NCBI RefSeq assembly: GCF_030908405.1
Contig: NZ_CP133089.1
Location: 1,364,001-1,428,000 of the forward strand
Reading direction: 5' to 3'
DNA: 64,000 bases
DNA from: Aminobacterium sp. MB27-C1
GTDB taxonomy: Bacteria > Synergistota > Synergistia > Synergistales > Aminobacteriaceae
The position numbers and the translations under genes were made by a program. Shown in pieces: positions 44,496-60,382 of the stretch. Below the pieces are notes generated by a model. That model was given only the letters and a program-made list of their open reading frames with translations, ran no database searches and was not told the origin of the DNA. Each line of letters opens with the position of its first letter. The stretch's first letter is position 1.

Positions 44496-44549
44496 GCCAT
44501 CTAAATTTACTATCGCTCTAATAATTTACCATGATAAAGGATGAGGGGT

Positions 44550-45806
44550 ATGAAATTTATAAAAGAAGCAAGTTCTTTCTACAAAGAAAGCTCGGTGGAA
44601 GTTCAGAATACGGTTTCCCAAATTATTAAAGACATTCGTCAGGAAGGTTGGGAAGCAGTAAAAAAATATGCTCTTTCACTTGATAAGTTTAGCGGCTCTT
44701 TTCAAATTTCCAATGAAGAGCTCTATGAAGCAGAAAAAAGACTTACATCTTCAACTCGAAAAGCTCTTGAACGATCCATACGAAATGTTAGAACATTTCA
44801 CAGCTATCAGAAGAAACTCTTTCAGCCTTTTGCATGTCCTATAGAAAACGGCGTTACAGCCGCACTTCGTTTTATTCCTGTTGAACGAGCGGCAGTTTAT
44901 GTACCTGCTGGACGATACCCATTGCCAAGCACAGCAGTAATGGGAGTCGTTCCTGCTCAAGAAGCGGGAGTTTCAGAAATTGTTCTTCTCTCTCCTCCAA
45001 CAAAAGAAGGAAGTATCTCTCCTATCATTGCCGCAACGGCTTCTCTTCTTGGCGTTTCTGAAGTATGGGCCCTTGGGGGTGCACACGGAATAGCGGCCAT
45101 GGCCCTTGGAGCAGGCCCTGTAAAGAAAGTTGACATGATTGTCGGACCAGGGAATGCCTACGTAACAGAAGCAAAACGGCTACTCTCAGGCGAAGTTGGT
45201 ATCGATGGGCTTGCCGGACCTAGTGAAGTGCTCATTATAGCTGATGAAACTGCTAATCCTTTGTGGTTGGCAGCCGATATTGCCGCTCAGTCAGAACATG
45301 ACCCTATGGCTGCAAGCACTCTTCTCTGTACAGATGAAGAAACAGCTCTGAAGACGCTTTGGGAATTAGAAGCTCTCTTTAAAACTCTTGACACTGCTGA
45401 AACAATCAAGCAAGCCTGGAAAAATAACGGAACACTAGCTATCTGCTCTCTTGACGAAGCTATACAGGAAAGCAACAGACGAGCGCCAGAACATCTTCAA
45501 CTTTGCCTTCGAAGCGGAGAAAATATTTTGAATCTATGCACAGCCTATGGAGCCGCTTTTGTAGGGAATATGTCACCCGTTCCATTCGGTGACTATATAG
45601 GAGGAACAAACCACACTCTTCCCACTCAGGGGCGAGCACGGTTTAGTGGAGGACTCTGGACAGGAACTTTTCTACGTCCCCTTACGTCCCTCACTCTTAA
45701 TAGTATAGGAGCCAGTTCCCTTTCTGAAGACGGAATCACTCTAGCTGAAACGGAAGGGCTCAAAGCACACAGTCTTTCCATGGCTTTACGGAGGAATAAA
45801 TTATGA
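44550..45806 (+). CDS. hisD: Histidinol dehydrogenase
   Basis: Last enzyme of the pathway: NAD-dependent four-electron oxidation of histidinol to histidine. Signature segments include VGPGNAYVTEAKR, DGLAGPSEVLIIAD, the zinc-site SEHDPMA, and RAPEHLQL. 418 residues. The ATG at 44550 has GGATGAGGGG upstream. First gene of the operon; its stop overlaps the hisZ start (ATGA). Confidence 0.97.
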   Translation: MKFIKEASSFYKESSVEVQNTVSQIIKDIRQEGWEAVKKYALSLDKFSGSFQISNEELYEAEKRLTSSTRKALERSIRNVRTFHSYQKKLFQPFACPIENGVTAALRFIPVERAAVYVPAGRYPLPSTAVMGVVPAQEAGVSEIVLLSPPTKEGSISPIIAATASLLGVSEVWALGGAHGIAAMALGAGPVKKVDMIVGPGNAYVTEAKRLLSGEVGIDGLAGPSEVLIIADETANPLWLAADIAAQSEHDPMAASTLLCTDEETALKTLWELEALFKTLDTAETIKQAWKNNGTLAICSLDEAIQESNRRAPEHLQLCLRSGENILNLCTAYGAAFVGNMSPVPFGDYIGGTNHTLPTQGRARFSGGLWTGTFLRPLTSLTLNSIGASSLSEDGITLAETEGLKAHSLSMALRRNKL

Positions 45807-47017
45807 ATATAAATCGCTTACCACGAGGATGTACAAACGTAGGTGGCCCTCTGGCTGCCTCTATGGATAAATGTCGTACCAATTTCATGGAACTTTTTTC
45901 TTCCTTTGGATACCGACCTTTTTGGCCTTCCGCGCTACAACTTCTTGAATCTGCCTGGCCTCACCTTCCTGAAGGGTATAGACAACGGCTTATTGCACTT
46001 ACCACACCATACGGAGAGCCTTCCTGTTTGAGAGCAGATATAACGCTGGCAGCTGTAGCTTTCCTTGCTTCTCATTACGCTCCAGAACAGCAGCCATTGA
46101 GACTCTGTTATGCAGATAGGATATTCAAACGTGCTGAAAAACACGAAAATCGCATTGAAAACTTTCAGATAGGTGCAGAACTTCTAGGCTGGGAGGGAGA
46201 AGGTGCTGACATTGAAATCCTATGGCTTCTTTTACGCTGGTTAGACGAAATAGGCCTTGATAAAAGTATTTTAGTCATAGGCGATGTAACTTTTCTGAAT
46301 TACGCCCTGGCCCACGTAGGGACAGCTATAGCTGAACGTTTGTCTCGATCTTTGCTCGAAGGGAATCTTTCCGAATATAGAAATGTGCTCTCAACGTCTG
46401 ATATTCCAGAGTACAGTCGGAATATTTTAGAGCACCTCCCTGACCTGAAGGGGACAAAAAATGTACTTGAGCAAGCCTCTGCTCTTTTGGGATCTTCTCA
46501 ATATCTCATGCCATTAAGAAATATTGTGAAAGCCCTTTCTGACTTGGGATATGAAAAACGCATTTTCGTAGATTTGAGTTTGGCACGAGAGCTAAGTTAC
46601 TACAGCGGCCCTGTATTTCGTATTTATGCCTCTGGTACATCTGGACAGGAAATTGGCGGTGGAGGGCGATATGACGGCCTTCTCAATAGTTATGGATTAG
46701 ATGGACAAGCTATAGGTTTTGCTATAGATCTCGAGGAAGCCGCGACTCTTGCACTTCCTCCTTCTGGGTCCCATCGCGTTATGATGTGGTGTTCTACTCT
46801 GCCCCCAGAGCAAGCGCTTAGACGCGCTGGGACCATTCTTTCTCTCGGATTAAACGGAGAAATGAGTTGGAACAAGAACAGAAACCAATCGTACGAATCT
46901 GCCTCATCTCGAAACTGCGAATGGTGGATAGATTTAGGACGTGAAACCGTTACGCAAATTGAATGCGGGAAAGTCATGCCGCTTTCTCAATGGATGAGGG
47001 AGGAATATACATGTTAA
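45803..47017 (+). CDS. hisZ: ATP phosphoribosyltransferase regulatory subunit
   Basis: HisRS-like paralogue without aminoacylation that completes short HisG into an active, histidine-inhibited complex. Class II core segments are visible (LRADITLAAVAFLASHY, RIFKRAEKHENRIENFQIGAELLG, EIGGGGRYDGLL). 404 residues. It lies immediately upstream of short hisG, its obligatory partner. Confidence 0.93.
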   Translation: MNINRLPRGCTNVGGPLAASMDKCRTNFMELFSSFGYRPFWPSALQLLESAWPHLPEGYRQRLIALTTPYGEPSCLRADITLAAVAFLASHYAPEQQPLRLCYADRIFKRAEKHENRIENFQIGAELLGWEGEGADIEILWLLLRWLDEIGLDKSILVIGDVTFLNYALAHVGTAIAERLSRSLLEGNLSEYRNVLSTSDIPEYSRNILEHLPDLKGTKNVLEQASALLGSSQYLMPLRNIVKALSDLGYEKRIFVDLSLARELSYYSGPVFRIYASGTSGQEIGGGGRYDGLLNSYGLDGQAIGFAIDLEEAATLALPPSGSHRVMMWCSTLPPEQALRRAGTILSLGLNGEMSWNKNRNQSYESASSRNCEWWIDLGRETVTQIECGKVMPLSQWMREEYTC

Positions 47018-47625
47018 CTCTTGCACTTCCAACAGGTCGTGTAATGAAAGAAGCCATCGATCTGTTCGAAAATATAGGGCTTCCAACAAAAGAATTACGT
47101 AATGCCGGTCGAAAACTTGTTGTACAAGAAAATAACTATCGCTATATTCTGGCCAAACCTTCAGACGTACCACTTTATGTCAGCCATGGAGTAGCTGATT
47201 TAGCTCTCATAGGGAGTGACGTTCTTCAAGAAAGCGCCATAGATCTTGTAGAGCTCGCGGATACAGGACGTGGAAAATGTCGCATTGTGGTTGCCGGGCC
47301 AGAACGTATGGTTCTTGCTTTTGCAGGACACCCCTCGGAATTGATGTGGACAAAAGTAGCGACAAAATACCCTAGAATTGCAGACGATCACTTTTCCTCA
47401 CTGGGAGTTCAGGTAGAGATTATTCATCTTCATGGATCAATAGAACTTGCTCCAGCATTGGGTATGGCAGACTGCATTCTAGATATCGTACAGACGGGAA
47501 ATACTTTACAGGCCAATAAGCTTGTTATTCTTCAAGAAGTCAGAGATGTCTCTCTGAGGCTAGTCGCCAGCAAGCAAAGCGCCTCTTTAAAATGGCCACA
47601 AATAGCAGCGCTTCTCAAAAAATAG
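47011..47625 (+). CDS. hisG: ATP phosphoribosyltransferase, short form
   Basis: First committed enzyme: ATP + PRPP to phosphoribosyl-ATP. Seen: LALPTGRVMKEAIDLF, the substrate segment VSHGVADLALIGSDVL, and the PRPP loop LDIVQTGNTLQAN. 204 residues means the C-terminal regulatory domain is missing, as expected when HisZ is present. The ATG at 47011 has GAGGGAGG upstream and overlaps the end of hisZ. Confidence 0.96.
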   Translation: MLTLALPTGRVMKEAIDLFENIGLPTKELRNAGRKLVVQENNYRYILAKPSDVPLYVSHGVADLALIGSDVLQESAIDLVELADTGRGKCRIVVAGPERMVLAFAGHPSELMWTKVATKYPRIADDHFSSLGVQVEIIHLHGSIELAPALGMADCILDIVQTGNTLQANKLVILQEVRDVSLRLVASKQSASLKWPQIAALLKK

Positions 47626-47649
47626 AAAATTTGAAAGGTGTGGTAGGCA

Positions 47650-48219
47650 ATGCCAACTGAACTTCAAAGGGAAAGTTCCGAAACATCGATTACACTCAGA
47701 CTTTCCATCCCGGGGAAAGAACGTTTTCTCGATATCCCATGTGGTTTTCTTCGGCATATGCTTGACCTCTTCTTCTTTCACAGTGGCATATCAGCAACAA
47801 TAAAAGCTACTGGGGATACTGATGTAGATGCTCATCACCTTACAGAAGACATAGGAATACTTCTTGGAAAAGCTTTTTTAAAGGAACTCGAAAACAAGCC
47901 CTTTGCGCGTTATGGCTGGTGTGCTATGCCTATGGATGGCTCTCTTGCCCTTGTTGCAGTCGATATAAGCGGTCGTGGACAATTTGTGTGGGATGGAACA
48001 TTCCCATCGCCATCATGCGGAACCTTCGATCTTGAATTGGTTCCAGAATTCTGGAGAGCTTTCTGTAGAGAAAGTCGCATAACTATTCATGGACGTCTTC
48101 TCGCCGTAGATAACAGCCACCACGCAGCAGAAGCTCTATTTAAAGGGATAGGACGTGCTATGAAACAAGCAACTTCCATAGAAAATGAAGTGCAGTCAAC
48201 AAAGGGGATGCTTATATGA
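47650..48219 (+). CDS. hisB: Imidazoleglycerol-phosphate dehydratase
   Basis: Mn-dependent dehydration of imidazoleglycerol phosphate. Both metal-ligand motifs are intact: DAHHLTED and NSHHAAEALFKG. 189 residues, so monofunctional, with no HAD phosphatase domain. The conserved FLDHML segment reads FLRHML, an Asp-to-Arg change next to a metal-binding region. Stop overlaps the hisH start. Confidence 0.95.
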   Translation: MPTELQRESSETSITLRLSIPGKERFLDIPCGFLRHMLDLFFFHSGISATIKATGDTDVDAHHLTEDIGILLGKAFLKELENKPFARYGWCAMPMDGSLALVAVDISGRGQFVWDGTFPSPSCGTFDLELVPEFWRAFCRESRITIHGRLLAVDNSHHAAEALFKGIGRAMKQATSIENEVQSTKGMLI

Positions 48220-48833
48220 TCGGAATCATCGATTATGGAGCAGGAAACGTAGGTAATGTAAAGAGGGCCCTTCTCGCCCTTGAGGAATCATGCACCGTAC
48301 TTCGAAGCCCAGAGTTGGTAAAAAAAGATATTGATTTTTTAATCCTTCCTGGCGTAGGAGCCTTTGCTCCTGCCATGATAGCGTTACGGCAACAAGGCTG
48401 GGACATATTTCTTCAACAATGGGCAAAAGAGAATAAGCCTATTTTAGGTATATGCCTCGGTTTGCACCTTCTTTGCGAAAGCAGTGAAGAAGATGGATAT
48501 CATGAAGGACTAGGTCTTTTAGAAGGTCATGTTTGTCACCTGCAAACGCGTAAATGCCCCCACATGGGGTGGAATTCTCTGGAATGGATAAAACCTATAA
48601 AAGGGGTAACACCCTCTTCAGAAAAAACTAACTTTTATTATTTCGTCCATAGTTACGGCCTTCCCCAAACAGAAGACACTGTAGCTATAACACGAATCGA
48701 AGAGAGATCTGTTACTGCTATTTGCCTCCGCAAAAGGGTGGCTGCTTTCCAATTCCATCCGGAACGAAGTGGTAATGCTGGACTTTCCATACTGGGAAAA
48801 ACTATAAAAATGTTGAGAGGTGTTTCATTATGA
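48216..48833 (+). CDS. hisH: Imidazole glycerol phosphate synthase, glutaminase subunit
   Basis: Class I glutamine amidotransferase supplying ammonia to HisF. Nucleophile Cys in GICLGLHLL and the His/Glu pair in FQFHPERSG. 205 residues. Overlaps hisB and hisA by 4 bases each. Confidence 0.96.
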   Translation: MIGIIDYGAGNVGNVKRALLALEESCTVLRSPELVKKDIDFLILPGVGAFAPAMIALRQQGWDIFLQQWAKENKPILGICLGLHLLCESSEEDGYHEGLGLLEGHVCHLQTRKCPHMGWNSLEWIKPIKGVTPSSEKTNFYYFVHSYGLPQTEDTVAITRIEERSVTAICLRKRVAAFQFHPERSGNAGLSILGKTIKMLRGVSL

Positions 48834-49549
48834 TACTTTATCCTGCCATAGACCTCTATCAAGGGAAAGTTGTTCGCCTGAAACAGGGAGACTTTAACAT
48901 TAAGACAGAATATGACATTACACCGTTAGAAGCAGCTCATAAATTCGCCGAAGCAGGGTGCACGTGGGTACACATTATAGATCTCGAAGGGGCGCAGGTT
49001 GGACATCCCGCCCATACATACATATTACAATCTCTACACCACCTTGGCCTCATGGTTCAGTATGGAGGCGGTCTTCGATCTCTTTATGATATAGAAGAAA
49101 CTTTCAAAGCAGGTGCAACTCGTCTTTACGTAGGGAGCCTTCTTGTTGAAAATGAAAAAATGGCCAGCCAACTTTTCTCCACGTGGGGAAATGGAATTAT
49201 TCCAGCAGTGGACATAAAAGAAGGAAAGGTTGCAACTCGTGGATGGACCTCAACGTCATTTTTGCCTCCATCTGAGTATATTTCCTTTTTGAAATCGGCA
49301 GGCTATACCACACTGCTTGTCACGGCTGTTCAAAGAGATGGCACTGGCGTTGGTCCCGATATGATGCTCTATTCACAGCTTTTAAAAGAATTCCCTGACA
49401 TATCTATCATAGCAGCAGGCGGGATATCATCCCTAAAAGATTTGGAAGCTCTTCAATCGATAAACATCGCCGGGGCCGTTCTTGGAAGAGTCTTGTATGA
49501 AAAGGATTTCGACTTGAAAGAGGCATTAAGGAGGGTCTCGTTATGTTAA
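48830..49549 (+). CDS. hisA: ProFAR isomerase (HisA)
   Basis: Half-barrel-duplicated (beta/alpha)8 isomerase. AIDLYQGKVVRLKQGD start with catalytic Asp, QYGGGLRS in the first half, AVDIKEGKVATRGW and IIAAGGISS in the second half. 239 residues. Overlaps hisF by 7 bases. Confidence 0.96.
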   Translation: MILYPAIDLYQGKVVRLKQGDFNIKTEYDITPLEAAHKFAEAGCTWVHIIDLEGAQVGHPAHTYILQSLHHLGLMVQYGGGLRSLYDIEETFKAGATRLYVGSLLVENEKMASQLFSTWGNGIIPAVDIKEGKVATRGWTSTSFLPPSEYISFLKSAGYTTLLVTAVQRDGTGVGPDMMLYSQLLKEFPDISIIAAGGISSLKDLEALQSINIAGAVLGRVLYEKDFDLKEALRRVSLC

Positions 49550-50307
49550 CGAAACGAATCATTCCATGCCTTGACGTTAAAAATGGACGAGTAGTCAAAG
49601 GCATCCAATTCAAAAATCTCATTGATGCCGGCAATCCAGCAGAAATGGGTAAACGATATATGAATGAACAAGCAGATGAACTCGTTTTTCTTGATATATC
49701 AGCTTCCTCAGAGCGGCGAAGTACAATGAAAAGCTGGGTTAAAGATGTAGCTGACCATATTTTTATTCCCTTTACTGTCGGCGGCGGTATTTCGTCTGCC
49801 GAACAGGCACGAGAAATAATAGCTCTCGGCGCTGATAAAATTTCACTCAACACGGCAGCTGTAAAAAAACCTGGTTTGATTCGTGAATGCGCTACCCTTT
49901 TAGGGCGTCAGGCCGTTGTTCTTGCCGTAGACGTTAAAGAAGAAATTCCCGGTCACTGGGAAGTTTATATTGAGGGAGGGAAAACGTCGACAGGGAAAGA
50001 TGCCTTCCAATGGATACAGGAAGGGGTTGAGCTAGGCTGCGGTGAAATTTTATTGACGTCAATGAATCGTGATGGAACCCAAAAAGGATATGATATCCCC
50101 CTTCTCTCAAAAATTGTCAATATGGTTCCAGTGCCTATTATTGCATCTGGGGGTGCTGGTAGTAAGGAAGATATACTTCATGCGTTCCAAGCAGGTTGTG
50201 ATGGTGCTTTAGCCGCTTCTATCTTCCATTTTGGAACGGTACCTATTCCTTATTTAAAGAGATGGCTTAAGGATCAGAATATCCCTATTCGACTTGTGGA
50301 GGCATAA
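49543..50307 (+). CDS. hisF: Imidazole glycerol phosphate synthase, cyclase subunit
   Basis: (beta/alpha)8 cyclase forming IGP and AICAR with His[17 protein letters not shown] start, FTVGGGISS and the catalytic Asp region [14 protein letters not shown]. 254 residues. Confidence 0.97.
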
Positions 50308-50308
50308 A

Positions 50309-50932
50309 ATGATTGATTACGAACAAATACACTTCGATGAAAAGGGGCTCATTCCCGTTATTGTTCAAGATTGGGAAAGTGGAGAAATTTTAATGCTCGC
50401 CTATGCTAATCGCCAGTCTCTTGAAAAAACTGAAGAGATCAACGAAATGGTCTTCTGGAGCCGCTCGCGTCAGGAACTTTGGCACAAGGGAGCAACCAGC
50501 GGGAATAGACTAAAGCTGAAGGAACTTCGCCTAGACTGCGACGGAGACACCCTTTTAGCTTTTGTAGAACCTACAGGACCTGCATGTCATACAGGAGCAA
50601 GATCATGCTTTTTTAACATGCTCACTAACGAACAGGCAGGAAAGGCTATCTTCCCTGGCCAATTATGGAAATATCTAAAAAAACGACAACTCGATAATCC
50701 AGAAGAAAGCTACACTGCTCGCTTAATAGCGTCTGGAGTAAAGAGAACGGCTCAAAAGATTGGTGAGGAAGGTGTGGAAACGGCACTTGCCATTGCCGCC
50801 GGAGATAAAAATGAAGTGATATATGAAGCGGCAGATCTTCTTTATCATCTCATGGTGGGGCTACTTTCAGCAAACGTATCTTTGCACGAGATTATAGCGG
50901 AACTTGAGAGAAGACACGCTAAGGCACATTAA
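50309..50932 (+). CDS. hisIE: Bifunctional phosphoribosyl-AMP cyclohydrolase / phosphoribosyl-ATP pyrophosphatase
   Basis: HisI domain (1-110) with [30 protein letters not shown] and the zinc-site [10 protein letters not shown]; HisE domain (about 120-207) with [19 protein letters not shown] and [11 protein letters not shown]. 207 residues. The ATG at 50309 has GGAGG upstream. Last gene of the operon; its end overlaps the convergent PHP gene by 4 bases. Confidence 0.97.
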
Positions 50933-51717
50933 TTCGGCCAAGGTGCGAGCACTTTGCGCCCATCTTCCTTCCGAATAGCTTTCGCCAACTCATCGAAAGA
51001 AGGCTCCGCGAGAAGAAAGGTGGAGCTATTTTCAATACAGAGGCTTTTCAGCCAATGAGAATCGGAAGAACGTATAAACGTCCATTCTGGATATCTTGCC
51101 TGAAGGGCCTCTACTTCTTCGGGGAAACACCTCCATGAGACTTCAAGAGCATCGGCAGGGAAGTTTGAAGGGATTGGCCCCAATACTGCAGGATAGGAAA
51201 AGGAAGGGCGGTCTATATGGGCTAGAATAACAAGACCTCCTCTTCTTTTAGCTTCAATTGCCACTTCATCAACAGAATAGCCAACACCTTGAATAAGAAG
51301 AATCTCCTCTTCACAAAGAATATCGTTCTTATCAGAGATAACCAATTGGTCTCCAAAGACCTCTGGACGATTCTGTACTCCAGGCATTCGTTGCCACAAC
51401 CATAATTGAAAATCAGAAATCGTATTGTAATCTTTAAAAAGAGTAACAACATGAATATCTTCAGCCGTTTGAACTTCAATGCCTGGGATGACAACAGGAT
51501 TACCAGCAGCCGCTTTAAACACAGCTGGGAAATTTAATGCCGAGTTATGATCTGTAATAGCTATAATATTAAGACCTTCCTGACGTGCTTTTAAGACAAT
51601 GTCTGGTGCTCCCATCTCAAGCTCTCCGCAGGGAGAGAGCACCGTGTGGATATGGATATCAGCACAATAGGGGGTCAGACTGCTTTCTTCTTTATCGAGT
51701 ACGCAGTCCCATTTCAT
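50929..51717 (-). CDS. PHP-domain metal-dependent phosphoesterase-like protein
   Basis: PHP fold with the first metal motif [13 protein letters not shown] (His-x-His), ITDHNS (Asp-His), a central GIEV segment and LAHIDRPSF, matching the order of PHP metal ligands. 262 residues from the ATG at 51717. Relatives include TrpH-type 3'-5' phosphoesterases, histidinol phosphatases and DNA polymerase-associated PHPs; none can be chosen with certainty. It ends the hydrogenase-like gene set and is convergent with the his operon. Confidence 0.82.
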
Positions 51718-52030
51718 AAAGCCGCCCACAAATTTCGAATACGGGTAAAGGAGAACAGGCTAGTGTCAATTTTTCCTCTTCACATCTCTCTATTAAATCC
51801 CCTGCTGGTCGACGTCCTCCTCCGATTATAATGAAGGGAACATCCTTTAAAACAGCAACTGCCGCAATATTGAGATGAGTCTGTATAGTAATCCATACCC
51901 ATCCTTCTTTTGCAGCAGCCATTATAAAACTCAACAAATCCCCAGTAAGCGCTCCCTTAATTTCAGCATCAGTTTCTCCTTGGGATACAACTTCAAGTTC
52001 AAATTCATCAATGATAGATTGAATATTCAA
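51692..52030 (-). CDS. Small DRTGG-like domain protein
   Basis: 112 residues, one compact alpha/beta domain. GALTGDLLSFIMAAAKEGWV and the VPFIIIGGGRRPAGDLI segment resemble DRTGG domains, which are often found beside [FeFe]-hydrogenase-related genes and in HPr-kinase and CBS contexts. Start TTG at 52030 with AGGAGGGG 7 bases upstream. Overlaps the PHP gene by 26 bases. Function unknown. Confidence 0.65.
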   Translation of the reverse strand: MNIQSIIDEFELEVVSQGETDAEIKGALTGDLLSFIMAAAKEGWVWITIQTHLNIAAVAVLKDVPFIIIGGGRRPAGDLIERCEEEKLTLACSPLPVFEICGRLYEMGLRTR

Positions 52031-52042
52031 ATTTTCCCCTCC

Positions 52043-53341
52043 TTATGAGCCAAAGGCATGAGGCACTTTCCCCGAAAGTTGTGAAATTTCCTTACTTAAA
52101 TCATGAATACGCTCTCGAAGCTTAAAGATGCAATCTGTCATTTCACCTTTTCCACGCACTATATCTTCAGCCATGGCCCGACACGACGGACGTCCGCACG
52201 AACCACAATCAATATGAGGCAAATCCGCGTAAATAGCATTCATTTCTTTAAGCTTTGCCATTGCTTCTCCTAAATCGTTTGAAAGAGGTAAACGTTGCTT
52301 AGGCTGAATAGTCTGATCAAGCTTCCAAATACCCTTTTTATACCACTTTTCTATGTTTTCTTTCTCATCGTCAGTTACGCTCCAATCTACTTTCATAGCA
52401 TCAATACGCAAACGAGAGAGAAAACGAGATTCGTGAGTTCCTACCCCACCAATACATCCTAAGTCACAGGCACGACACTCAACGTAATCCACACCACCCA
52501 AACGTCCCAACTCTAGCTCTGCTAAGAGATCAATCGTGTTTCTCATGCCTGAAACAGCAACAGTTCGTAAAGGACGACGGCTAAAAGAAGAAATATGACG
52601 AGACTCACCACCAGTAATCGACCATTTGAGCCATCGATCATTCATTTTGTGGGTTCCCTCTCCAGATATTTTTGGACTTCCGGCCAAAATATCATGTACG
52701 ACTCGTCGAACCGAAACAGTATATGCAATGGAGCTGAGCTCACGTCCCACAGGATTTCGTACAAGAGTTGTCTTGGCAGGGCATGGAGAAATAAGGGTAA
52801 GATCATCTTTTCTTCCTGTAACCTCACGCCAAAGAACGACACTAGACTCAAGCGGTGATTCTATAGGAATAAGTCTGCTTATAAGTTCTGGAAAATTTAT
52901 TTGAATAAGGCGAATAACAGCAGGGCAATATGTTGAAATAAAGGGAAGACGCTCAGATTTTTCTGCCTCTATATGGCGCGCAATGGCATATGCAGCCACG
53001 TCAAAAGCCAATGCTTCACAATCAAGAATATCTTCCATTTGTGTAGCATGTAAAGCTTCTTTCATGAGAAAAGGTGAACCGTATGAACCAATTTGAACGT
53101 AAAAACAAGGGTCAGCAATGAGAACCACTTTTTCTTGAGATCGTAATAGTTCCCATTCATCCTCATTGAGAATTATTGCCTTCTCTTTACACTTTCTGAT
53201 ACACTCCCCACAATCAATACAAAGATCAGGAATAATGTGAACGCATCCAGTTAAAACACGCATTGCTTCAGTAGGGCATGACTTTATGCAATTTGCACAA
53301 CCTCGACATCGTACTTCCTGAACTCTGACACCCCCAGCCAT
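52043..53341 (-). CDS. [FeFe]-hydrogenase-like iron-sulfur protein with extra Fe-S domain
   Basis: 432 residues in three parts. Residues 1-60: 2x[4Fe-4S] ferredoxin (Cys12/15/18/22 and Cys41/44/47/51). Residues about 65-310: the C-terminal (H-cluster) domain of [FeFe] hydrogenases, with equivalents of its three signatures: STYCP (136-140), SPCPAK (185-190) and ACDLGCIGGVG (291-301). The four H-cluster cysteines are kept (139, 187, 292, 296), but the proton-relay Cys of TSCCP is Tyr138. Residues about 375-405: a four-cysteine Fe-S module (Cys379/382/387/404), then a coiled coil. No small-subunit or diaphorase genes are beside it. More like a sensory or regulatory hydrogenase than a catabolic one. 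Confidence 0.85.
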   Translation of the reverse strand: MAGGVRVQEVRCRGCANCIKSCPTEAMRVLTGCVHIIPDLCIDCGECIRKCKEKAIILNEDEWELLRSQEKVVLIADPCFYVQIGSYGSPFLMKEALHATQMEDILDCEALAFDVAAYAIARHIEAEKSERLPFISTYCPAVIRLIQINFPELISRLIPIESPLESSVVLWREVTGRKDDLTLISPCPAKTTLVRNPVGRELSSIAYTVSVRRVVHDILAGSPKISGEGTHKMNDRWLKWSITGGESRHISSFSRRPLRTVAVSGMRNTIDLLAELELGRLGGVDYVECRACDLGCIGGVGTHESRFLSRLRIDAMKVDWSVTDDEKENIEKWYKKGIWKLDQTIQPKQRLPLSNDLGEAMAKLKEMNAIYADLPHIDCGSCGRPSCRAMAEDIVRGKGEMTDCIFKLRERIHDLSKEISQLSGKVPHAFGS

Positions 53342-53353
53342 AAGCTTTCCCCC

Positions 53354-53785
53354 CTACTCTTTCTTAAAAAAAATAGTGGCGCTTAATACTGTTCCTTTCC
53401 CAACTTCAGAATCAAGGTGCATATCATCAGAATGACGTTTTATATTAGGTAGCCCCATACCCGCTCCAAATCCAAGCTCTCGAATTTCATCGGTAGCTGT
53501 TGAGTATCCTTCTTGCATTGCCAGTTCAATATCTGCAATTCCCGGGCCCCTATCAATAGCCCATACTTCAAGTTTATCTGTATAAACGATAAGACGTATA
53601 GTTCCTCCACCTGCATGAAGGACTAAATTCATTTCCGACTCATAGGCCACAATTGACGCACGGCGAGTAATGTCAGACGGAATTCCCAACATTTTCATAG
53701 TAGCTTTGAACTGAGTGGAGGCTTCGCCTATAGCACTAAAATCGCGGCCAGCTACAGTGTATTCTTCTACATAAGGTTCGCTCAC
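53354..53785 (-). CDS. RsbW-like GHKL ATPase / anti-sigma-type kinase
   Basis: 143 residues, a stand-alone histidine-kinase-like ATPase. N-box ESEMNLVLHAGGG, G1 DRGPGI and G2 GFGAGMGLPNIKR are all visible, with no dimerisation or H-box. RsbW/RsbT/SpoIIAB relatives phosphorylate serine on small regulatory proteins and bind sigma factors. No sigma factor or STAS antagonist is adjacent; the neighbouring DRTGG proteins are possible partners. Confidence 0.88.
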   Translation of the reverse strand: MSEPYVEEYTVAGRDFSAIGEASTQFKATMKMLGIPSDITRRASIVAYESEMNLVLHAGGGTIRLIVYTDKLEVWAIDRGPGIADIELAMQEGYSTATDEIRELGFGAGMGLPNIKRHSDDMHLDSEVGKGTVLSATIFFKKE

Positions 53786-53788
53786 AAC

Positions 53789-54154
53789 CTACACCTCTCT
53801 CGCAGGGATATTACAGGGCAACACTCCTTCTCTATAAAGAATGCCACACGTTTCAAACATACTGCTATGGCTCAGGATCACCGGCATTCCTAATTGAGAT
53901 GCAAGTTTAATTGCCGCTTCCTGAGGGCGCTTCCCCCGCACGAAAACGACAGCAGGAATATCTAGCATTTGAGCAGTACGTATAATTTGGACATTGGTAA
54001 GTCCCGTAAGCAATAGAGAACCCGGCCTGGCAAAGGCAAGAACGTCACTCATTAAATCAGCACCGTAGGCATATTCGATTTCTGTGGAATCAAGTAGTTC
54101 TTCGCCATACAAAATATCGCCTTTAATATGTTCCACTACTTCGCGAAGCTTCAT
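53789..54154 (-). CDS. DRTGG-domain protein
   Basis: 121 residues. Core YGADLMSDVLAFARPGSLLLTG followed by VQIIRTAQMLDIPAVVFVRGK fits the DRTGG family. The ATG at 54154 has GGAGG 8 bases upstream. It is 3 bases from the RsbW-like gene. Possible sensor or phosphorylation target; unknown. Confidence 0.72.
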   Translation of the reverse strand: MKLREVVEHIKGDILYGEELLDSTEIEYAYGADLMSDVLAFARPGSLLLTGLTNVQIIRTAQMLDIPAVVFVRGKRPQEAAIKLASQLGMPVILSHSSMFETCGILYREGVLPCNIPAREV

Positions 54155-54174
54155 CTTCACGACCTCCTACCTGC

Positions 54175-55374
54175 TTATTCTTCTCCGCCACGAACATTCA
54201 CTGTAGCGATAGGTTCAAATCTGCCTTTTTTAACCTGGAGAATGCTGACCTCTCGTTCTTCAGGTCGATGCGTCTGGTCGCTGAATTTCAAAACTTTTTT
54301 GCCTAAAGACACACCTTCTATCGCTGGCATTAATGCAGCTACAATATCTGGGTCCGGAGTTTTAGCCCTGTGCAGCCCTTGAAGAAGCCACGAAGCGGCA
54401 CTCCAAGCTCTACCGGCTAGAGCCCTATCTGGAACATTTTTACGAGTTATCGTCCATATCTTTCTTTCAAAAGCAGCTAAAGACAGATCCGATTCCAGAG
54501 AATATTCCTGACTTACTGCAATTATCCCCTCACAATTACGGAGGGCTGGATTAGGCTCTCCTCCATACCATAGAGAAAGAGACAATCCATCTTCGCGTTG
54601 ACTTTGATAAATATTGGTCATCGCAAGGGAATCAAGCCAAAGAATAAAACAATTGGCACCAGATTGAATGCCCTCTTGATAGATAGTCTTAAAACTGTTG
54701 TCTCCAGCACCGCTCTTCCAAAAATTATAAACAGGCCATCCATGTTTTGCCGCTAATGTGGAAAATCGGTCTGATCGAGCTGACAGACCATCATCAAGAC
54801 GGTCTGTTATCTGAGCTACCCCATTATCTGTTTTGAATATATGAGAGCCATAAGCTGCTAACGCTTCCGCCCGATATGTTTCAGGTAAATCCAAAGCAAA
54901 GACATAAGGAAGAATGCTTCCTTTCTCATTACGAAGAGAAAGATTTTCGCCATATGCAGAGAGAAGAACAGGCCCCTTTTCCCCTAAAAGAGAAACAAGA
55001 TTGTTATTTAATGAACCTCTGACAAAACTTAGAACAGCAACGTTATTTTTCTGCCAAGCCTTTTGGCGAACCTCAAGCTCCTCTTCAGAAGGAATATCTT
55101 CTAATTCGAAAAATACGTCGTATCCGGCTATTCCTGCTGCACTTTCATTAATCTCTTGTTCAAGAACAGACAAGGCTAAAGAGATGGATTGTCCCTCTTC
55201 ACTTTGCCAGCCTTCTTCAGGAGGCAGCACAGCAATAGTCCAAATCCATCCTTCCTCTAATCCTTTTTTCACTTCGTGATGCATTTCAGCGTTACATTGA
55301 GCATTTCCATATAGCAACCCCAAGAAAAAGGAGGCTCCTATGCATAATATATATAAAAAACGTTTATAAAACAT
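54175..55374 (-). CDS. Periplasmic-binding-protein-like (Peripla_BP_6 type) secreted protein
   Basis: 399 residues. N-terminal hydrophobic segment (8-25) serving as signal peptide or anchor; no canonical lipobox at the Cys near 27. The rest follows the branched-chain-amino-acid receptor fold (IAVLPPEEGW, then GQSISLALSVLEQEINESA, later EALAAYGSHIF). No ABC transporter genes accompany it, so it may act as a ligand sensor or as an orphan receptor. It is 20 bases upstream of the DRTGG gene, on the same strand. Confidence 0.75.
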   Translation of the reverse strand: MFYKRFLYILCIGASFFLGLLYGNAQCNAEMHHEVKKGLEEGWIWTIAVLPPEEGWQSEEGQSISLALSVLEQEINESAAGIAGYDVFFELEDIPSEEELEVRQKAWQKNNVAVLSFVRGSLNNNLVSLLGEKGPVLLSAYGENLSLRNEKGSILPYVFALDLPETYRAEALAAYGSHIFKTDNGVAQITDRLDDGLSARSDRFSTLAAKHGWPVYNFWKSGAGDNSFKTIYQEGIQSGANCFILWLDSLAMTNIYQSQREDGLSLSLWYGGEPNPALRNCEGIIAVSQEYSLESDLSLAAFERKIWTITRKNVPDRALAGRAWSAASWLLQGLHRAKTPDPDIVAALMPAIEGVSLGKKVLKFSDQTHRPEEREVSILQVKKGRFEPIATVNVRGGEE

Positions 55375-55395: not shown

Positions 55396-55893
55396 CTATC
55401 GTTTATATCCGATAATGTCACGAAGCAATTTTTTGCGCGCTTGTATATGGTCATTTCCTTCCACGCCAACAGGCATAAAGCCATCAATAACACCAGCAAT
55501 TCCTCGGCCTTGTTCTGACTCACATACGATAGTTTGGATTGGATTTGCAGTTGCCGCAAAGACTCTACAAACCTCCTGGCAATTTTTAATGCGATCTAAA
55601 ACATTTATCGGATAGCCATTTCTCAGCAAGATAACAAAAGTATGACCAGCACTCAACTTCTGAACATTTTTGATAGCAAGATTTTTCAGATCATCAGCAT
55701 TTCCATCATAACGAATAAGACAGTCGCCAGAAGCTTCGCAGAAAGCTATTCCAAACTCTAGGGAAGGAGAAGAAGTAATAAGTGCCTCGTAAAGATCTTC
55801 AACTGTTTTTATAAAATGACTCTGTCCGATAATGATATTACAATCCTCAGGAAACTCCATTTGTACTAGTTCCCATTTTTTAATTTCAGTCAT
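55396..55893 (-). CDS. Adenosine-specific kinase family protein (PF04008 type)
   Basis: 165 residues. The pattern HFIKTVEDLYEALITSSP, EASGDCLIRYDGND-like (EASGDCLIRYDGN), GHTFVILLRNGYPINVL and RVFAATANP matches a small family, common in archaea, whose structure bound adenosine. Physiological role unclear. 21 bases upstream of the periplasmic-binding-like gene. GGAGGAT precedes the start. Confidence 0.8.
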   Translation of the reverse strand: MTEIKKWELVQMEFPEDCNIIIGQSHFIKTVEDLYEALITSSPSLEFGIAFCEASGDCLIRYDGNADDLKNLAIKNVQKLSAGHTFVILLRNGYPINVLDRIKNCQEVCRVFAATANPIQTIVCESEQGRGIAGVIDGFMPVGVEGNDHIQARKKLLRDIIGYKR

Positions 55894-57422: not shown

Positions 57423-58118
57423 TTAATCATCTGTTTTTCCCAGCTGCGAAAATAAAAATTCAGCATATGCGAGATCAAATTCGTTATCAATATCTATACT
57501 TGAAGTCTCTCCCATAATATAAGGGTAAAAAGGGAAATTAACAAATTTACATGTTTTTAAAAACAACGCTACATTAACATAGTATATAGCGCCGTTAATC
57601 CTCCATGTTTTGGGAAGTTTTTGCCGGGGCATTTCAAAATATTCCTGCCCCATTAATGGAAGTAATTTTCCCTTTTCTTCTACCAAAGTTTTATATGGTG
57701 TATGGTCGGTTTCTGTAAGACTGACAGCACACTCCATTCTACGCGCTCTCGTTTCACTGATACATTCATCAATCTGGCGAAACGTTCGTAAAGGGGATGT
57801 AGGCTGAAGTAGAACTATTTCATAATTTCCCTGATAGTCTGTCCCCAGAGACTCTATAACATGTGAAACTACAGGTGCTGTTGGAGTAGTGTCCTCAGCA
57901 AGGTACGATGGCCTCACCACTATATCTATTCCCCAAGAACGCCCATATTCCGCTATTTCATCGTCATCTGTAGATAATACGCAGTGAGTAATATATTTCG
58001 ATTTTAAAGCTGCATCAATGGTCCACCCCACAAGTGGCCGACCATTAAGCATCCTCATATTTTTTCTGTGTACTCCCTTACTACCACCCCTCGCTGGAAT
58101 GACAGCAACGCAATTCAT
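57423..58118 (-). CDS. neuA: CMP-sialic acid (acylneuraminate) cytidylyltransferase
   Basis: Activates a nonulosonic acid with CTP. N-terminal nucleotide loop IPARGGSKGVHRKNMRML, then LLQPTSPLRT, both family motifs. 231 residues. 1 base after neuC; last gene of the neuB-neuC-neuA run. Could equally activate legionaminic acid; with NeuC beside it, a sialic-acid-like sugar derived from ManNAc is favoured. Confidence 0.9.
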   Translation of the reverse strand: MNCVAVIPARGGSKGVHRKNMRMLNGRPLVGWTIDAALKSKYITHCVLSTDDDEIAEYGRSWGIDIVVRPSYLAEDTTPTAPVVSHVIESLGTDYQGNYEIVLLQPTSPLRTFRQIDECISETRARRMECAVSLTETDHTPYKTLVEEKGKLLPLMGQEYFEMPRQKLPKTWRINGAIYYVNVALFLKTCKFVNFPFYPYIMGETSSIDIDNEFDLAYAEFLFSQLGKTDD

Positions 58119-58119
58119 T

Positions 58120-59280
58120 TTATACCCCTGCTTTCCACGAAAGTAGATCCTGAAACTGTTTTTGACGTGACGTTTCCCAAATACTTTTTCCTGATAAAGC
58201 TGCTACAAAACGTTTTGTACTCTGTCCATCTCCAAATTGCATAGAAGACGCGATTCTATTGTTCTTCATTTCTGTTGCCTTATCTATAGCTTGCACAACA
58301 GCACTGCTCTCTGCCGGAACGTTTATAATCGAAGGGAGAGAGATTCTTCCGTTCTGACGTGAGCCAATATTTATTGTGGGGATGCCATAAACTGGTGCTT
58401 CGTGAATGCCAGAACTGGAATTCCCCAATATAAAATCTGCATTCTTGAGAAATGTAAGAAAAAATTCGAAACGCAAAGAGGGGAAAAATCTGAAATGTGA
58501 CGATTTTTGCAAGTCTTTGTATGAATCAAGAATAATGTCACACCCAGGATCATTATTTGGGTAGACAACGATGAAATTCTTTCCGCTTTTTTCAGCTCCC
58601 TGACAGACACCATCAATCTGATTTTTCAAAGAGTCAATTTCTGTGGTAACGGGATGAAACATGAATATGCCATATCGGTCATATTCGATCTCATAACGTT
58701 GGCGAGCATCTTCTAAAGAAGGTAAAGACTCCGAAAGCATTATGTCAATATCAGGTGATCCTATAACGTAAATAGATTTCTTGCATTCCCCCATCTGAAC
58801 CAATCTTTGAGCAGACTGCTCATTAGCAACAAAATGAAGATGAGCAAGTTTAGTTATGGAATGACGTATAGTTTCGTCTATAGTCCCAGAAATCTCGCCA
58901 CCTTCAATGTGTGCTACTAAGATATTATTTAATGAGCCCACTATGGCACCTGACAGGGCTTCTACTCTATCCCCATGAACAACGATCATATCTGGCGTAA
59001 CTTCGTGAACGTACCTAGATAATCCGGCAACCGTATTAGACAAAACCAAATCCATAGGCTCCCCGTATATTTGGTTCATAAATACGTGAATATTCTCAGA
59101 TAAGCCGTCTTTTTCAAATTCATTAACGGTGTAACCATATCTAGCTAACGTATGCATTCCTGTAACGAAAACCTTACATTCAAGCGAGGGTGCTTGCTTC
59201 ACTCCACGAATCAAAGGTTTTAACTTGCCATAATCTGCTCGTGTTCCAGAGATAAACAGAATCGTTTTTTTCTCTTTCAC
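58120..59280 (-). CDS. neuC: UDP-N-acetylglucosamine 2-epimerase (hydrolysing)
   Basis: Makes ManNAc from UDP-GlcNAc. ISGTRADYGKLKPLI at the start, PDMIVVHGDRVEALSGAI, HIEGGEISGTIDETIRHSI and GNSSSGIHEAP are the family motifs. 386 residues from the GTG at 59280, which overlaps the neuB stop (TAGTG) and has GGGAGG upstream; an ATG at 59298 is the alternative. Confidence 0.93.
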   Translation of the reverse strand: MKEKKTILFISGTRADYGKLKPLIRGVKQAPSLECKVFVTGMHTLARYGYTVNEFEKDGLSENIHVFMNQIYGEPMDLVLSNTVAGLSRYVHEVTPDMIVVHGDRVEALSGAIVGSLNNILVAHIEGGEISGTIDETIRHSITKLAHLHFVANEQSAQRLVQMGECKKSIYVIGSPDIDIMLSESLPSLEDARQRYEIEYDRYGIFMFHPVTTEIDSLKNQIDGVCQGAEKSGKNFIVVYPNNDPGCDIILDSYKDLQKSSHFRFFPSLRFEFFLTFLKNADFILGNSSSGIHEAPVYGIPTINIGSRQNGRISLPSIINVPAESSAVVQAIDKATEMKNNRIASSMQFGDGQSTKRFVAALSGKSIWETSRQKQFQDLLSWKAGV

Positions 59281-60317
59281 TATAGAAGATCCTCCCATCG
59301 GAGCTGACTCCCTGCACGGATGGCTATTTTAGTTTTTCTCCCTAAAATAGCCTTATATTCACTTGCTGAAATTTCTCCTGTTCCTGGTCGCTTTACCCAA
59401 ATGTTCGCTTCAGTAAGCACTTCACCTTGTGCTATATCCTTTTCTGCAACGACACAAGCATACGCAAAATCTATTGTAGGTTGTTCCTCCGGGAGTATAC
59501 CTTTCTCTCCGCCTGATGCCTCATAAATAGCACGACTAGCAATAATGAGCTCTTTCAACTCCTGAGGTTCCATGGATATGGGAATATCGGGACCAGGCCA
59601 AGATTTATCGGAAGTAAAGTGTCGCTCTAAAATAGAAGCGCCGAGAGCCACTGCTCCTAAACAAGGATATATGGTTTCGCAATGGTCAGACAACCCTATA
59701 ACAGCATCAGGAAAGGCTTCTCTCAGCTGTTTTAGTGCACCTAAACGCACCTTAGCGTATGGAGTGGGATACATGCTGGTGCAATGTAAAAGAGCAAAGG
59801 GAACATCATACTTTCTTAAAATATCTACAGACACACCTATCGAATCGATAGAATTCATCCCTGTACTTAAAATAACAGGCTTTTTAAAAGAAGCAACCAG
59901 TTCTACCAAGGGGTAATTGTTGCACTCCCCTGAGCCGATTTTATAAGCTTTAGCCCCTAAACGTTCAAGTCGTAAAGCTGCAGCTCGGGAAAAGGGTGTA
60001 CTTAAAAAGAAAAGCCCCTTCTTCTCTACATACTGTTTCAATTGGGCTTCTTCTGCTTCAGAAAAAGAACATCTTTTCATAATATCCCAGATAGACTCTT
60101 CTGCATTTGAAGGAACAATGTTTTTTGCACTGGGAGCCATTTCATCTTCTATTACATGGGATTGAAACTTTACACATTCACAGCCAGCAAGACGTGCATC
60201 ATCAATCATACGAAAAGCCTTATTTATGTCACCTTCGTGATTAATGCCTATTTCTGCAATAACCAAAGGGCGGTAGCCGTCACCAACGCAACGTTCTCCT
60301 AATCTAAAAAAGGGCAT
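59280..60317 (-). CDS. neuB: N-acetylneuraminate (nonulosonate) synthase
   Basis: Condenses ManNAc (or a relative) with phosphoenolpyruvate. NeuB TIM barrel (about 15-270, with AEIGINHEGD and LSTGMNS) and a C-terminal SAF domain (about 285-345). 345 residues; the ATG at 60317 has AGAGGTG upstream. First gene of the sialic-acid-type run. Confidence 0.95.
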   Translation of the reverse strand: MPFFRLGERCVGDGYRPLVIAEIGINHEGDINKAFRMIDDARLAGCECVKFQSHVIEDEMAPSAKNIVPSNAEESIWDIMKRCSFSEAEEAQLKQYVEKKGLFFLSTPFSRAAALRLERLGAKAYKIGSGECNNYPLVELVASFKKPVILSTGMNSIDSIGVSVDILRKYDVPFALLHCTSMYPTPYAKVRLGALKQLREAFPDAVIGLSDHCETIYPCLGAVALGASILERHFTSDKSWPGPDIPISMEPQELKELIIASRAIYEASGGEKGILPEEQPTIDFAYACVVAEKDIAQGEVLTEANIWVKRPGTGEISASEYKAILGRKTKIAIRAGSQLRWEDLL

Positions 60318-60382
60318 TCTTTTCACCTCTAATCACAATGTACCGTCTATATTATCGGTAGCACCATATAAAAAACTAACCG

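Follow-up and report, generated by a model that had tools for sequence, protein, structure and literature searches.

The gene at positions 52043-53341 of the window (the whole 64,000-nucleotide stretch of Aminobacterium sp. MB27-C1 DNA that was analyzed) encodes a group-D-derived, [FeFe]-hydrogenase-like protein, which is probably a [2Fe]-free Fe-S redox sensor in a HATPase-linked signaling cassette and ought not to be classified as an [FeFe] hydrogenase. The gene and the parts of its product are as follows:

52043..53341, minus strand: group-D-derived [FeFe]-hydrogenase-like Fe-S protein, 432 aa (Pfam, motifs, alignment and fold)
C12, 15, 18, 22, 41, 44, 47 and 51 (eight cysteines): N-terminal 2x[4Fe-4S] domain of this protein
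C139, 187, 292 and 296, with Y138, K190, E246, E288 and R290: its H-domain
C379, 382, 387 and 404: its C-terminal Cx2Cx4Cx16C module

The open reading frame runs on the minus strand from an ATG start at 53341 to 52043; a reading-frame check finds stops throughout the plus strand of the interval, which rules out a reading in that direction. Pfam recognizes a Fer4 dicluster at residues 6-56, Fe_hyd_lg_C at 71-299 (60.1 bits, cut-off 22.1) and the FeS domain PF04060 at 374-406 (47.5 bits). The H-domain motifs are STY138C139PA, ISPC187PAK190 and VEC-R290-A-C292-DLG-C296, and their alignment with the enzyme CpI places Arg290 at the M497 position and Lys190 at the position of K358, a ligand-contacting lysine of CpI. 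The initial annotation had listed four H-cluster cysteines (139, 187, 292 and 296), a relay cysteine changed to Tyr138 and an added four-Cys Fe-S module at the C-terminus, and all of these are present in the minus-strand product, the module as C379-x2-C382-x4-C387-x16-C404. Its further point, that the MPC motif has become SPC, is correct for the window protein, but Ser185 is variable across the family. The N-terminal domain with its eight cysteines, Arg290 and the kept Lys190 are additional to that list.

In architecture the window protein corresponds to the 'putative sensory' [FeFe] hydrogenases of Group D (M2e). In the tree, a quick one with long branches and built without any characterized Group D sequence, the window family falls outside Groups A, B and C and groups with two cassette proteins from beyond the Synergistota (99*); a scan of genome contigs yielded Synergistota MAGs only, and the outside Group D sequences come solely from 'plasmid' records that are probably mislabeled. 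Assignment to Group A is ruled out by STYCPA, SPC and CRACDLGC in place of TSCCP, MPC and MACPGGC, and assignment to Group B or C by the motifs, the tree and the absence of PAS; Pfam detects no PAS domain in the protein, which ends about 28 aa past the FeS module. Loss of the relay cysteine and an extra C-terminal cluster are not new, as these traits define Groups C and D, in which the C299 position is mostly Ala (A137 in TamHydS).

The window protein resembles TamHydS of Thermoanaerobacter mathranii (PMC8163306, PMC10407848, PMC13104023) in its domain order, its lack of PAS and the Cx2Cx4Cx16C motif reported for the Group D C-terminus (PMC8163306), and residues C379, C404, D378, E392, D393 and D403 are shared with identical numbering (PMC13104023). 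Both also have Ser at the M353 position (Ser185 in the window protein, a residue that varies within its family), the proton-path glutamates and an adjoining HATPase gene; in TamHydS the alternative proton path is formed by E252/E289 (PMC10407848), to which E246/E288 appear to correspond by motif context. The two differ in that the window protein has Tyr138 where TamHydS has Ala137 and Arg290 where it has Leu at the M497 position. They differ further in that TamHydS incorporates [2Fe] and is active in H2 turnover, whereas the window genome has neither maturases nor a Group A hydrogenase. The Group C (M2f) protein TmHydS of Thermotoga maritima (PMC10055695) is likewise similar in having non-catalytic residues at C299, M353 and M497 and a C-terminal [4Fe-4S] cluster, but it contains a PAS domain, which the window protein lacks, and lies on a separate branch of the tree.

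An AlphaFold2 model built from an alignment of 74 relatives (pLDDT 92.2, pTM 0.89) has a hydrogenase fold. VIA-align ranks [FeFe] hydrogenases at the top, with Z 31.1 and rmsd 3.7 over 356 aligned residues for DdHydAB variants, and Z 29.1 and rmsd 3.3 over 340 aligned residues for CpI (4XDC; model residues 1-348); Foldseek concurs, and the structural matches barely reach the C-terminal domain (349-432). Among the nearest solved structures by sequence are HydA2 from the H2-dependent CO2 reductase and hydrogenases of Desulfovibrio (E 3e-13 to 1e-9). Given the fold match and the motif alignment, Cys139, 187, 292 and 296 very likely converge in space. The fallback of the initial annotation, that the product could be only a ferredoxin-like protein, is not supported, with the whole H-domain fold present and the H-domain cysteines invariant; a ferredoxin-only reading is ruled out by Pfam together with these matches to DdHydAB and CpI (Z about 29 for the latter).

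The window genome, a single 2.43-Mb contig from the Synergistota that is 99.95% complete, encodes none of the maturases HydE, HydF and HydG. A profile search finds no HydG in it at a permissive threshold and no HydE at E 0.001, and the HydF profile yields only sub-cut-off matches to GTPase domains. The HydF dimer domain PF18128 is also absent from this genome; as a control, it is detected in Thermotoga maritima and in the maturase-bearing Synergistota genomes G022, G108 and G173. All three maturases are missing from both of two congeners as well. The window's own protein is the single PF02906 member in its genome, and there is no other [FeFe] hydrogenase. The initial annotation had left open whether the protein carries an H-cluster or a plain Fe-S cluster, and the lack of HydE, HydF and HydG in a complete genome favors a plain Fe-S cluster.

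Of 188 Synergistota genomes, 82 have a HydG match above cut-off, 97 a HydF match and 104 a HydE match, and members of the family occur both with and without these maturases: 37 of 81 come from genomes without any of the three and 44 from genomes with at least one. Although the maturase-less genomes include incomplete MAGs, many of them reach 97-99% completeness, in some cases on 1-2 contigs. Lys190 is replaced by Arg, Met or Val in 17 of the 37 members from maturase-less genomes and is kept in 42 of the 44 others; the two exceptions are in G142, with two maturases in an assembly that is 65% complete, and in G099, with a HydF fragment. These losses represent three changes on the tree, and a comparison of independent pairs gives no significance, so that the tie between Lys190 loss and maturase absence is suggestive only. 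An independent pointer in the same direction may be seen in Group C-type proteins with a PAS-type C-terminal part, which in the maturase-less genomes G025, G026, G028 and G043 have Thr at the C299 position and Arg at the K358 position; this is a hint, and the sampled Group C proteins of G024, G123, G137, G168 and G169 keep the lysine.

These data bear on whether the window protein could instead be a genuine Group D sensor of H2 that carries the whole H-cluster, its maturation following an unrecognized route independent of HydEFG or depending on highly divergent maturases. The protein shows every Group D hallmark, and the retention of Lys190 and of the proton-path glutamates E246 and E288 is a counterpoint to the [2Fe]-free reading; TamHydS, moreover, stays active despite its missing relay cysteine (PMC8163306). 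Two further genomes, G114 (a single contig of 1.68 Mb, 99% complete) and G035, encode a canonical Group A HydA with TSCCP, MPC and MACPGGC, and four profiles detect no HydE, HydF or HydG in either. Either this HydA lacks [2Fe] or the maturases are missed by the profiles or the assemblies, which hints at something overlooked in the phylum; maturase absence may therefore not always mean [2Fe] absence, and our confidence that the one proves the other is lowered. Against a complete H-cluster are the absence of HydE, HydF and HydG at permissive thresholds, the loss of the K358-equivalent lysine in maturase-less Group D clades, the Arg at this position in the Group C proteins of four maturase-less genomes, and the Tyr and Arg at the C299 and M497 positions, given that even an M497L substitution hampers the integration of [2Fe] into a Group A enzyme (PMC10055695). 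On balance we regard a complete H-cluster as unlikely.

A subfamily profile finds the family in 93 of 188 Synergistota genomes, a few of the matches being fragments or Group C proteins, and 81 Synergistota proteins were aligned. Fifty-one positions are invariant in this alignment, and all 16 cluster cysteines, Y138, E246, E288 and R290 are the same in 81/81; the pattern of cysteines, Tyr and Arg is thus beyond chance, and the cysteine invariance, which spans about 10 families, strongly implies that the protein binds clusters. Position 185 is Ala in 44 of the proteins, Ser in 25, Thr in 7 and Val in 5. Tyr138 and Arg290 are equally invariant in maturase-bearing genomes, and they are ruled out as marks of maturase loss. 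The invariant Tyr together with Arg at the M497 position is the lineage's own signature, since Groups C and D usually have Ala where this Tyr stands. In the cassette proteins of Parabacteroides distasonis and Subdoligranulum, positions 138/290 are Phe/Arg and Ala/Asp, so the Tyr is specific to the Synergistota set examined. The gene tree tracks taxonomic families, consistent with vertical descent, and a search of viral contigs found no relatives of the protein.

Between the window gene and that of the congener G030, dN is 0.06 and dS is saturated, indicating strong purifying selection despite the missing maturases. The lack of maturases could be taken to mean that the protein is a functionless relic, but the selection, the invariance of the cysteines across about 10 families and the conserved cassette bring this reading close to refuted, and we consider it scarcely credible.

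The hydrogenase-like gene is the third of five closely packed minus-strand genes, which have short gaps between them and Shine-Dalgarno-like sequences and follow the order DRTGG-HATPase-hydrogenase-like-DRTGG-PHP. The other four genes, and two that lie upstream, are:

53789..54160, minus strand: DRTGG-domain protein 1, 123 aa, upstream of the HATPase gene (Pfam DRTGG, 35.5 bits)
53354..53785, minus strand: HATPase_c protein, SpoIIAB/RsbW-like, 143 aa (Pfam HATPase_c, 28.8 bits)
51692..52030, minus strand: DRTGG-like protein 2, 112 aa, TTG start, downstream of the hydrogenase-like gene
50929..51729, minus strand: PHP-domain phosphoesterase, 266 aa, the last gene of the cassette (Pfam PHP, 32.0 bits; HxH, DHN and DSH motifs)
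54175..55374, minus strand: Peripla_BP_6, periplasmic binding-protein-like (Pfam), often but not always upstream of the cassette
55396..55893, minus strand: adenosine-specific kinase, PF04008 (Pfam), sometimes upstream of the cassette

The HATPase gene ends 12 nt from the hydrogenase-like gene, and its product matches the NCBIfam model spIIAB with 39.4 bits, under the cut-off of 135 for that model. DRTGG-like protein 2 has no match of its own in Pfam, but an iterated HMM search converges with the family of DRTGG protein 1, and the Parabacteroides gene at the same position is annotated as DRTGG. Eighty loci were retrieved for study of the gene neighborhood. In 79 of them the HATPase gene directly precedes the hydrogenase-like gene; DRTGG lies upstream in 75 and PHP downstream in 73, and a second DRTGG is called downstream in 58. 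HMMs for the flanking genes match less often (Peripla_BP_6 in 42/80 loci, PF04008 in 31 of the 80 scanned), and the adenosine-specific kinase is probably outside the system. Scans for promoters and terminators inside the cassette give no more than in shuffles. The cassette is also present in records of Parabacteroides distasonis (Bacteroidota) and Subdoligranulum (Clostridia). It is held by the records NZ_OY725779.1 and OY725842.1, both labeled 'plasmid'; NZ_OY725779.1 also carries gyrA and is therefore probably chromosomal.

The initial annotation had proposed sensing or electron relay rather than fast H2 turnover. A hydrogenase-derived protein unsuited to fast H2 turnover agrees with our analysis, and of the two roles that of a sensor is the likelier, given the Group D architecture and the adjoining SpoIIAB-like HATPase.

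Several loci connect the cassette with bifurcating hydrogenases. In G165, where maturases are present, it is followed by HydC, a 2Fe-2S protein, HydB and a canonical Group A HydA. The cassette of families f3, f9 and f10, in which no maturases were detected, is followed by NuoE-HATPase-2Fe2S-NuoF-NuoG/HoxU-like-[NiFe] small-[NiFe] large-protease, the [NiFe] part being read in one genome per family (G011, G176 and G182). This gene set is that of HydABCSL, the bifurcating enzyme known from Acetomicrobium mobile (PMC8880783, PMC9304861). There is an apparent swap of the catalytic unit from [FeFe] to [NiFe] behind one regulatory cassette (G011, G182, G176). HydA of the A. mobile enzyme is also without an H-cluster, a parallel loss; HydABCSL is the enzyme that the cassette may regulate and is not, as a whole, homologous to the cassette protein. 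Its operon is described with hisK, hydD and hydP, and the hydrogenase-like protein is not mentioned there (PMC8880783, PMC9304861). The window genome has a HydABCSL-type [NiFe] operon at about 394-402 kb, without the extra HATPase and about 1 Mb from the cassette, so that the H2 chemistry of this organism is most plausibly [NiFe]-based. A second NuoD-like gene of the window genome lies beside Mrp/Nuo-like membrane genes.

The same loci raise the question of whether the hydrogenase-like protein instead serves a bifurcating hydrogenase or an NADH:ferredoxin enzyme, as an electron relay or accessory subunit with no part in signaling. Its gene adjoins HydABC in G165 and NuoE, NuoF and [NiFe] genes in f3, f9 and f10, and the predicted chain of [4Fe-4S] clusters would suit such a role. 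However, HydABCSL purified from A. mobile consists of five subunits (Anamo_1675-1678 and 1681; PMC8880783). Many loci have no hydrogenase genes in their 5-kb flanks, the HydABCSL operon of the window genome is distant, and the constant partners are the HATPase, DRTGG and PHP genes. A subunit role therefore seems improbable.

We propose that the ancestor of the sensor was a Group D (M2e) putative sensory [FeFe] hydrogenase and that the organometallic [2Fe] half of its H-cluster was dispensed with. The protein would then hold what are presumably four ordinary [4Fe-4S] clusters, two in the N-terminal domain, one cubane in the H-domain on C139/187/292/296 and one at the C-terminus, with Tyr138 and Arg290 in the places that border the di-iron site of CpI. 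The protein would form the redox-sensing part of the DRTGG, SpoIIAB-like HATPase, DRTGG and PHP cassette. Reduction of its clusters by ferredoxin or NADH-linked partners may alter its contact with the HATPase, and the resulting kinase or partner-switch output could tune the bifurcating hydrogenase system or redox metabolism; the DRTGG and PHP proteins would complete the switch, with the PHP enzyme acting on a putative target. We infer the absence of [2Fe] from the genome, and the signal and the output from the neighboring genes. In TamHydS the C-terminal cluster is not reduced by H2, and its redox change does not account for signaling in that protein (PMC13104023); for this reason, any redox signal in the window protein would more likely be carried by the clusters of the N-terminal domain or the H-domain.

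A hydrogenase-like fold that carries Fe-S clusters and no [2Fe] is known from Nar1/IOP1, a eukaryotic cytosolic Fe-S assembly factor (PMC12621388), and by description the window protein would be similar to it in cofactor. Nar1 has two [4Fe-4S] sites and needs no hydrogenase maturases (PMC12621388), and the window protein could by analogy be a bacterial scaffold or trafficking protein for Fe-S clusters. Its neighbors are nonetheless of signaling type and not Fe-S assembly genes, it is close to Group D, and Nar1 has no such C-terminal FeS domain and no HATPase/DRTGG/PHP cassette; we hold a scaffold role to be highly improbable.

The architecture and the family are already known, and what is new is a maturase-free lineage marked by the Tyr/Arg pair, with a [NiFe]-linked cassette. 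A limited search that left aside most subscription journals found no literature on maturase-less Group D proteins, and for DRTGG with hydrogenase it found only an unrelated AAA/DRTGG gene of D. vulgaris that is important for growth on L-lactate. The evidence is about evenly balanced for a broader proposal: that these proteins are a widespread and long-conserved bacterial class of [2Fe]-free, hydrogenase-fold Fe-S sensors (a counterpart of Nar1 as to cofactor), which persisted in several Synergistota lineages after [FeFe] maturation was lost there and was redeployed with the HATPase/DRTGG/PHP cassette for [NiFe] bifurcating hydrogenases.

Work on Groups C and D as sensors of H2 assumes that the H-cluster is the sensing element; the conservation of a large natural set of Group D relatives without maturases suggests that signaling in such lineages needs no [2Fe] site. 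Maturase-bearing and maturase-less members open the sensing mechanism to direct comparison in cofactor, partner binding and redox response. The change from [FeFe] to [NiFe] operons behind the same upstream cassette points to a general regulator of electron bifurcation, and the annotation '[Fe-Fe] hydrogenase' over-predicts H2 metabolism.

Around the cassette, a histidine biosynthesis run occupies 44541-50932 of the window on the plus strand and is convergent with it. At 57423-60326 on the minus strand are three adjoining genes resembling those for CMP-sugar synthase, UDP-sugar 2-epimerase and NeuB-type enzymes, as in a pathway of the sialic or legionaminic type.
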